Assembly: GCA_002686955.1 (NCBI GenBank)
Contig: NYZA01000073.1
Coordinates: 1-10,539 of the forward strand
Source of the DNA: Gemmatimonadota bacterium
GTDB taxonomy: Bacteria; GCA-2686955
Reading direction: 5' to 3'
DNA length: 10,539 nucleotides
Both the position numbers and the translations under genes were made by a program. Below the pieces are notes generated by a model, which worked only from the letters and a program-made list of their open reading frames with translations, had not been told where the DNA came from and did not search any database. Numbering within the stretch: the first letter of the stretch is position 1; each line of letters begins with the position of its first letter. Shown here in pieces: positions 4,299-6,176 of this stretch.

Positions 4299-5555
4299 TC
4301 AGCGCCCAACCTCCTCTTCGCCCTCGCTGCGGGCGATGATCGCGGCGCCGCAGGAGTCGGAGAAGATGTTGACGCCGGTGCGCAGCATGTCGAGGGGACG
4401 ATCGACCGCGAGCATCGTACCCACGATGGCGGCCACCTCGGGCCCGCGCAGATTCACCGCTTCGAGCACGATGAAGATCATCACCAAGCCGGCGGAGGGG
4501 ATGCCGGCGGCGCCGATCGATGCGAGGAGAGCCGTGACCACGACGGTGATCTGCGCCGTCACGCCCAAGGGGATCCCGAGAACCTGAGCGATGAATAGCA
4601 CGCCCACGCATTCGTAGAGCGCAGTCCCGTCCATATTGACCGTCGCCCCCAAGGGAAGCACGAACGAGCTCACCCGGTTCGAGACTCCGACCTTCTTCTC
4701 GACGCATTGCATCGTGAGCGGAAGCGTGGCCGCCGAAGAGGAGGTCGAAACAGCGGTCAAAACGGCGTCGCTCATATTCGTGAAGTGGCGCCTGGGCGAG
4801 AGCCTCCCCAAGACGAGAAGGAGCACGGGCAGGGTGACGAAGGTGTGCAGCGTCAGCCCCGCGGCGACCGTGAGCATATAGATGCCCATGCTGGTGAAGG
4901 TGGAAGCGCCCGACGCCGCCACCGCGCTCGTGATCAACCCCACGACTCCGAGCGGCGCCAATCGGATCACCGCACCGGTCAGGCGCATCATCACCGCGAA
5001 GAGTGCCTCGATCAGCTCCGAAACCGGCCGCCGGACCCCTTCGGGCATCGCCGCCAGGCTCGCTCCGAACGCGATGCAGAAGACGATGATTCCGAGCATG
5101 TCCATTTCGGCCAACGCCGCCACCGGATTCGTCGGCACCATGCGGAACAAGATCTCGGCCAGCGAATCGGGTGTCTCGACCTGGGGCGCCGTCCCCCCGG
5201 CGGCCGCGATCCCTTCGAGCGCTCCAACCCCCGGCCGTAGCGCGTTCACCAGCACCAACCCGACCAGGATCGCCAAGAGGCTCGTGGTCATGTAGTAGGC
5301 GAGCGTCTTCAGCCCCAGCCGGCCGAGAGCCCCGCCGCTGCCGACCGACGCCACGCCCGAGACGATCGAGGTCGCGACCAGCGGCACGATCGTCATCTTG
5401 AGCAACCGCACGAAAAGGGTGCCCATCCAGCCGACGGCCCCGACGGCGCTCTCGCCGAAGGTGAAGGCCAAGACAGATCCGAGCAACATCGCCAACAGGA
5501 TCTGCAACCAGAGCTCGCGAAGGAGGGGCGTCTTCTCGACGTGTTGAGTGTTCAT
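4299..5555 (-). CDS. Dicarboxylate/amino acid:cation symporter (SLC1/DAACS family), 418 aa
   Basis: This is a full-length member of the glutamate/aspartate/dicarboxylate symporter family (GltP, DctA, GltPh, EAAT), an inner-membrane trimer taking up acidic substrates with Na+ or H+. Visible hallmarks are the hairpin 1 serine-rich motif VSTSSSAATLP (269-279), the TM7 NMDGT motif (307-311), hairpin 2 AAGIPSAG (349-356), and the TM8 substrate site D-R-P-L-D-M-L-R-T-G-V-N (385-396) with Asp400. Asp389, Arg392 and Asn396 align with GltPh Asp394, Arg397 and Asn401; the arginine favours acidic substrates over neutral amino acids. ATG 5555 is preferred because family homology starts just after it and a GGGGAG lies about 11 nt upstream. 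An in-frame ATG at 5618 would read through the palindromic element. The palindrome at 5605-5780 occupies most of the upstream region, so it could affect expression or separate this gene from the minus-strand genes behind it. Na+ or H+ coupling cannot be told. Confidence 0.93.
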   Translation of the reverse strand: MNTQHVEKTPLLRELWLQILLAMLLGSVLAFTFGESAVGAVGWMGTLFVRLLKMTIVPLVATSIVSGVASVGSGGALGRLGLKTLAYYMTTSLLAILVGLVLVNALRPGVGALEGIAAAGGTAPQVETPDSLAEILFRMVPTNPVAALAEMDMLGIIVFCIAFGASLAAMPEGVRRPVSELIEALFAVMMRLTGAVIRLAPLGVVGLITSAVAASGASTFTSMGIYMLTVAAGLTLHTFVTLPVLLLVLGRLSPRRHFTNMSDAVLTAVSTSSSAATLPLTMQCVEKKVGVSNRVSSFVLPLGATVNMDGTALYECVGVLFIAQVLGIPLGVTAQITVVVTALLASIGAAGIPSAGLVMIFIVLEAVNLRGPEVAAIVGTMLAVDRPLDMLRTGVNIFSDSCGAAIIARSEGEEEVGR

Positions 5556-5604
5556 GGCTGCGCATGCTCCCCGAATCTTCGCGGCTCCGCAACCCGCTGC
5601 TCCC

Positions 5605-5780
5605 CCAGGATCCGCCACCTAATGCGTGCCCGAGCCGTGCGAATCTTGGTCTTAGTCGAGGAACCGCACCGATTTGAGCGCAGGCGTAGTGCGGCTACGT
5701 TGAGCATCAAACCGGTGCGAGTGACGAAGGATAAGGCCAAGAGGCGCATGGCGAAGCGCGCATTAGGTGGTGGATCCTGG
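5605..5780. repeat. 176-bp imperfect palindromic element (MITE-like or long hairpin repeat)
   Basis: The left end, CCAGGATCC(G)CCACCTAATG at 5605-5624, matches the reverse complement of 5761-5780 at 19 of 20 bases, and at 23 of 25 when extended inward. The symmetry continues toward a centre near 5692: TCTTGG(T/C)CTTA, CGCACCG(A/G)TTTGA and finally CGTAG (5685-5689), loop TGCGG, CTACG (5695-5699). The arms are diverged and need small gaps, so the whole folds as a long, bulged hairpin. The bases just outside are TCCC on both sides (5601-5604 and 5781-5784), a possible 4-bp target duplication. There is no transposase reading frame inside. It separates the DUF2752 gene (its stop codon touches the right flank) from the symporter start 49 bp away. 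As transcribed hairpin RNA it could terminate or stabilise the minus-strand message. Confidence 0.7.
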
Positions 5781-5783
5781 TCC

Positions 5784-6176
5784 CTATCCGCTCCGGTAGA
5801 GGACCCAGATCCAATCGACCAACACAGCCCCGGCCACCACCGAGAGCGGGATCCGCCGCAACACACTACGCGTCCTGGGGAGGAACGCCATGACGGCCCC
5901 GAGCAACAAGAGCGGAACCAGAGGATTCCAGTAAAGCGCTTCCATCAGATCGCCCCGCCCGAGCGCGCTCAGCGCCCTCATTCCACCGCAGCTCGGGCAC
6001 GGAACGCTCGTATGCCGCAAGAGAGGGCAAGCATCGATCAGCGGTCTCGTTTCAATTTCGACCGGGATCGAGCTCTCCCGCGTTGGCCTCGACGCCCGCC
6101 ATCGCGGCGCCCCGCTCCGGTCCTTCACCTGCGTACCAGCGCGACAAGATGCCGTTGATCCGCCCGAGATCTCCAT
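5784..6176 (-). CDS. DUF2752 membrane protein (start uncertain), up to 130 aa
   Basis: The core VPCPSCGGMRALSALGRGDL followed by EALYWNPL (residues 58-86 from the ATG at 6176) is the DUF2752 signature: a leading Cys (50), a CPxCG pair (Cys60, Cys63), an Arg after the glycines and the Ala-x-x-x-NPL turn. It is followed by two hydrophobic segments (about 87-99 and 111-126), so it is a small inner-membrane protein. The function of the family is not established. The start is the weak point. The only ATG outside the core, at 6176, makes the gene overlap the 3' end of the upstream gene by 125 bp. GTG at 6128 and TTG at 6020 are alternatives, and the latter would drop the first Cys. The true start may also be a rare codon near the upstream stop (6052). 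The stop TAG abuts the right flank of the palindromic element. It is probably co-transcribed with the upstream exported protein gene. Confidence 0.75.
   Translation of the reverse strand: MEISGGSTASCRAGTQVKDRSGAPRWRASRPTRESSIPVEIETRPLIDACPLLRHTSVPCPSCGGMRALSALGRGDLMEALYWNPLVPLLLLGAVMAFLPRTRSVLRRIPLSVVAGAVLVDWIWVLYRSG

Follow-up and report, generated by a model that had tools for sequence, protein, structure and literature searches.

A 176-bp palindrome lies between two minus-strand genes in the window (the whole stretch of DNA analysed, 10,539 nucleotides from a Gemmatimonadota bacterium) and is most probably, at a probability of about 0.88, a MITE (a short DNA transposon that cannot move by itself) mobilised by an IS1380-type transposase acting in trans. 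The element is dispersed in multiple copies and is not a local structure; it carries no gene, its copies have common terminal inverted repeats and most of them are flanked by 4-bp duplications. Together with its copies it forms a genuine MITE family that has IS1380-like ends and is new, though of a type already well known. The features of the locus are as follows:

4299..5556, minus strand: gene for a sodium:dicarboxylate symporter (Pfam SDF, 385 bits)
5601..5604, no strand: left target-site duplication TCCC, an identical 4-mer adjoining the other end
5605..5780, plus strand: palindromic non-autonomous MITE of 176 bp, found at about 20 sites in its own genome and at none in 59 other genomes, phage or plasmids
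5605..5623, plus strand: left terminal inverted repeat CCAGGATCCGCCACCTAAT, from the search with the 19-bp end
5685..5699, plus strand: central hairpin CGTAG-TGCGG-CTACG, from sequence and fold
5762..5780, minus strand: right terminal inverted repeat CCAGGATCCACCACCTAAT, from the same 19-bp end search, with 1 mismatch
5781..5784, no strand: right target-site duplication TCCC, its last base being the last base of the DUF2752 stop codon
5784..6176, minus strand: gene for a DUF2752 protein (Pfam DUF2752, 53 bits), ending against the insertion

The first-pass annotation had described a gene-less 176-bp palindrome with TCCC on both flanks, ends matching at 23 of 25 bases in inverted orientation and a central CGTAG-TGCGG-CTACG hairpin, placed in the leader of the symporter gene and against the DUF2752 stop, with both genes on the minus strand; each part of this description holds. 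Read from the sequence, the palindrome is imperfect: its symmetry runs the full length but is broken up by mismatches and small indels. When the left 25 bases are compared with the reverse complement of the right 25, the two mismatches fall at positions 10 and 23. The element contains no transposase gene, only spurious read-through frames. The listed open reading frame of the symporter starts at 5618, within the element, and the ATG at 5556 is the likelier start; the DUF2752 stop codon occupies 5784-5786. This second gene finds a weak match (E 0.004) in the only other genome of the same family. A consensus scan of 5500-5900 returned no promoter or terminator, and the window has no Rfam match. 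Folding of both strands, also proposed at first pass, gave -122.6 kcal/mol for the plus strand (z -10.9 against dinucleotide shuffles) and -103.1 kcal/mol for the minus strand (z -7.5), and no shuffle of either strand folded as well. The fold comprises 72 base pairs, with 81% of the bases paired.

It had been reasoned at first pass that many copies with conserved ends and variable flanks would indicate a mobile element, and a search of the rest of the genome returned exactly this pattern. The element is represented by 36 BLAST pieces at about 20 sites, these counts being search matches in a genome that is 84.5% complete. Full copies are 93-95% identical over positions 5-180, and a divergent lineage of copies (L007/L009) stands at about 85%. 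With up to 3 mismatches allowed, the 19-bp end CCAGGATCCGCCACCYAAT is found 44 times in the genome; a reversed control is found twice. The copies examined adjoin or separate long open frames with unrelated products, among them a histidine kinase and Rho, a RecD2-like helicase, an amine oxidase and the GTPase RsgA, Lgt and an FMN oxidoreductase, and an FGE-sulfatase. No copy of the 176-bp element was found in 59 other genomes, including one of the same family, nor in phage and plasmid records searched in distant mode. External core patterns of 20 bases (6 matches in genome contigs) and 18 bases (2 matches in viral contigs) were set aside as chance, since only about 18-28 bases match.

Target-site duplications accompany most copies. 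An exact 4-bp duplication flanks 6 of the 8 copies with both ends readable: TCCC in the window, GAGG (C166), ATGA (C8), TACC (C100), GAGC (C244) and GCAA (C266). One further copy (C167) has the 5-bp duplication CACCC and another (C163) has none. If a 4-mer matches by chance with probability 0.0049, at least six exact duplications in eight copies would arise by chance at about 4e-13; this test takes in the C266 copy, a variant with a different interior, and leaves out those at C81 and C65, which are perhaps one copy split by assembly. The duplicated 4-mers have no sequence in common, so the target does not look site-specific.

The link to the IS1380 family comes from longer, decayed elements with similar inverted ends in the same genome (C139, 518 bp; C98, 624 bp; C229, 306 bp). 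Those at C139 and C98, together with single-ended ones at C258 and C237, encode a transposase N-terminus that starts MVAxGVLPFxxVPETxKTxLTGLAGLPVYLDL... The longest fragment (C237) matches the NCBIfam IS1380 transposase model NF033539 over profile positions 6-103 (E 1.9e-7); since the fragment spans only about a quarter of the profile, its score of 30 bits falls under the whole-protein cut-off of 180. Another genome encodes a distant full-length homologue (L133), which scores 106 bits with Pfam DDE_Tnp_1_4 and 241 bits with the NCBIfam IS1380 model against the same cut-off of 180, and by these profile matches reads as a clear IS1380 transposase. No relatives of the fragment were found in plasmids and viral contigs. 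About 15 bp of the element ends are common to both ends of the transposase-bearing remnants. The remnants with both ends have no target duplication, and their ends are recognised by sequence alone. Published IS1380 elements have ends of 16-21 bp and duplications of 4 or 5 bp (PMC4133298), that of IS1247 being 5 bp (PMC3281130), and the duplication length of the present element (4 bp, 5 bp in one copy) fits these values. It is unlikely that a transposase from outside the IS1380 family mobilised the element and that the likeness to the remnant ends is secondary. Such a reading could draw on the 2-4 of 19 bases at which remnant and element ends differ, on an element interior unrelated to the remnants, and on the Pfam PF13701 search, which found no intact IS1380 transposase in the own genome (G000, 84.5% complete) or in a second genome (G001); set against it are the about 15 bp common to both ends of the transposase-bearing remnants from the same genome and the duplication length.

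Under the preferred reading, a MITE with an IS1380-type partner, another element whose ends were the same would have provided an IS1380-family DDE transposase in trans, a step that we infer, the 84.5%-complete genome having yielded no intact gene of this family. The enzyme would have bound the CCAGGATCCGCCACC ends, excised or copied the element, and inserted it where intergenic DNA had been cut with a 4-bp stagger; the window copy would have inserted with the DUF2752 stop codon on one side and the symporter leader on the other. More tentatively, if transcription continued from DUF2752 into the symporter, the element would form a highly stable hairpin in the RNA, of -103 kcal/mol on read-through, which could be cut by RNase III or alter mRNA stability, as is known for other MITEs (PMC10969869).

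The stability of this hairpin on both strands and its place in the symporter leader might instead suggest that the element acts locally, as a regulatory RNA or attenuator for the symporter or for a DUF2752-symporter transcript, with selection keeping its fold. The first-pass annotation had likewise seen compensated symmetry and raised selection on the folded DNA or RNA. In the alignment of copies, 96.5% of the counted cells are standard pairs, and both partners have changed in 6 of the 72 pairs, where shuffles give 2.2; to this extent the compensation is there. Nearly all of these changes come from the one divergent lineage (L007/L009), which has a matched change in both ends, from CCAGGATCC to CCATAATCC; the transposase, the hairpin or arm conversion may lie behind it, few copies being involved. 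The four 176-bp copies have a single both-side-changed pair among 26 differences from the consensus, most differences among near-identical copies thus being uncompensated, a pattern better explained by dispersed copies in decay than by selection acting on the individual folds. Support for selection on the fold is therefore weak. As copies also adjoin unrelated genes (histidine kinase, RecD2-like helicase, amine oxidase, FGE-sulfatase, Lgt) and the window gave no Rfam match, a local regulatory RNA is very improbable as an explanation of the palindrome. The window copy may have been co-opted secondarily; at this locus it most likely has no function or an incidental one, and the palindrome can be explained without any selected function of this copy.

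The first-pass annotation had also left the choice between a MITE and a REP/BIME-like hairpin, and here the copies and duplications uphold the former. To our knowledge, REPs leave no target duplication, and 4-bp duplications are frequent in the present element. A REP/BIME-type repeat moved by a RAYT (Y1) transposase would account for a dispersed intergenic palindrome; yet REP units measure 20-40 bp (PMC3733652), against 176 bp here, and the ends match a DDE-type insertion sequence, which leaves this origin almost negligible.

Some copies have themselves received insertions. A second MITE with GGTCSGCG-type ends lies within the C125 copy, flanked by the five-base duplication CTAAG; it occupies the same position in the copies at C81, C65 and C138, and adjoins the element end at C46. 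A third short insert, with inverted ends GGAGCCTGTT...AACAGGCTCC, splits the C167 copy (L011; C167:5692-5857). Since other elements are inserted into its copies, the 176-bp family predates those insertions and is not recent; it behaves as dispersed, ageing repeat DNA.

These inserts have features of their own. The second MITE belongs to a larger palindromic family of about 179 bp with ends GGTCSGCGMARRAATAACTT... (for example L017:102-280, in C125), for which the 40 candidates scored out of 162 gave 48 matches (L136-L155). Two of its subfamilies sit at the same CTAAG site within copies of the first element (C81/C65, C125, C138), which suggests a target-site preference rather than one shared event. 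Several of its copies lie at CTWAG (CTAAG or CTTAG), with an exact duplication in C125 and in one C17 copy. A fragment resembling the third insert adjoins an element end at C125:17261. A further dispersed repeat, GGAGACCGAG..TCCGCATCCCCGAACGCGA, is common to C191 (L114) and the region upstream of the C166 copy (L002), and at both loci it is near or beside end-like sequences.

At C266:6869-7045 the variant keeps the 18-bp ends of the family and is flanked by a GCAA duplication, but it encloses an unrelated palindrome, and this interior recurs at C102:12872-13013 without the ends, 94% identical over positions 19-160. IS1380-type ends might thus act as interchangeable caps around at least two unrelated long palindromes, that of the 176-bp family and that of the variant, an idea that we consider speculative and rather unlikely. 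If true, it would suggest that the ends were swapped onto, or inserted symmetrically around, pre-existing palindromes; alternatively, full-length palindromy itself would be favoured by the transposition process.

Among known systems, the element is closest in kind to bacterial MITEs such as TIMEs, Chunjie, Correia elements and ERIC, which are likewise short, gene-less, multicopy and intergenic, with inverted ends, target duplications and strong RNA hairpins; the folding energies of TIMEs are about -70 to -115 kcal/mol (PMC4133298). In contrast to these, the present sequence occurs only in its own genome among those searched, its 4-bp duplications have no fixed motif, and it is palindromic throughout, not at the ends alone. 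With the IS1380 family (ISPa33, ISPsp9, IS1247) it has in common duplications of 4-5 bp and inverted ends, 16-21 bp in that family (PMC4133298, PMC3281130), and a transposase N-terminus lies in similar-ended remnants of the same genome; unlike these insertion sequences, it has no transposase gene, and its interior is unrelated to the remnants. REP/BIME repeats are also dispersed intergenic palindromes, but the present element is much longer and has target duplications and DDE-type ends. A review of prokaryotic MITEs does not mention IS1380 (PMC10969869), and no description of an IS1380-derived bacterial MITE was found in the literature searched. For the organism, the finding cautions against annotating the hairpin that precedes the symporter gene as a regulatory RNA; for the lineage, which is sparsely sampled (its phylum is represented by 2 genomes in the searched set), it adds a MITE family that is now linked to IS1380.
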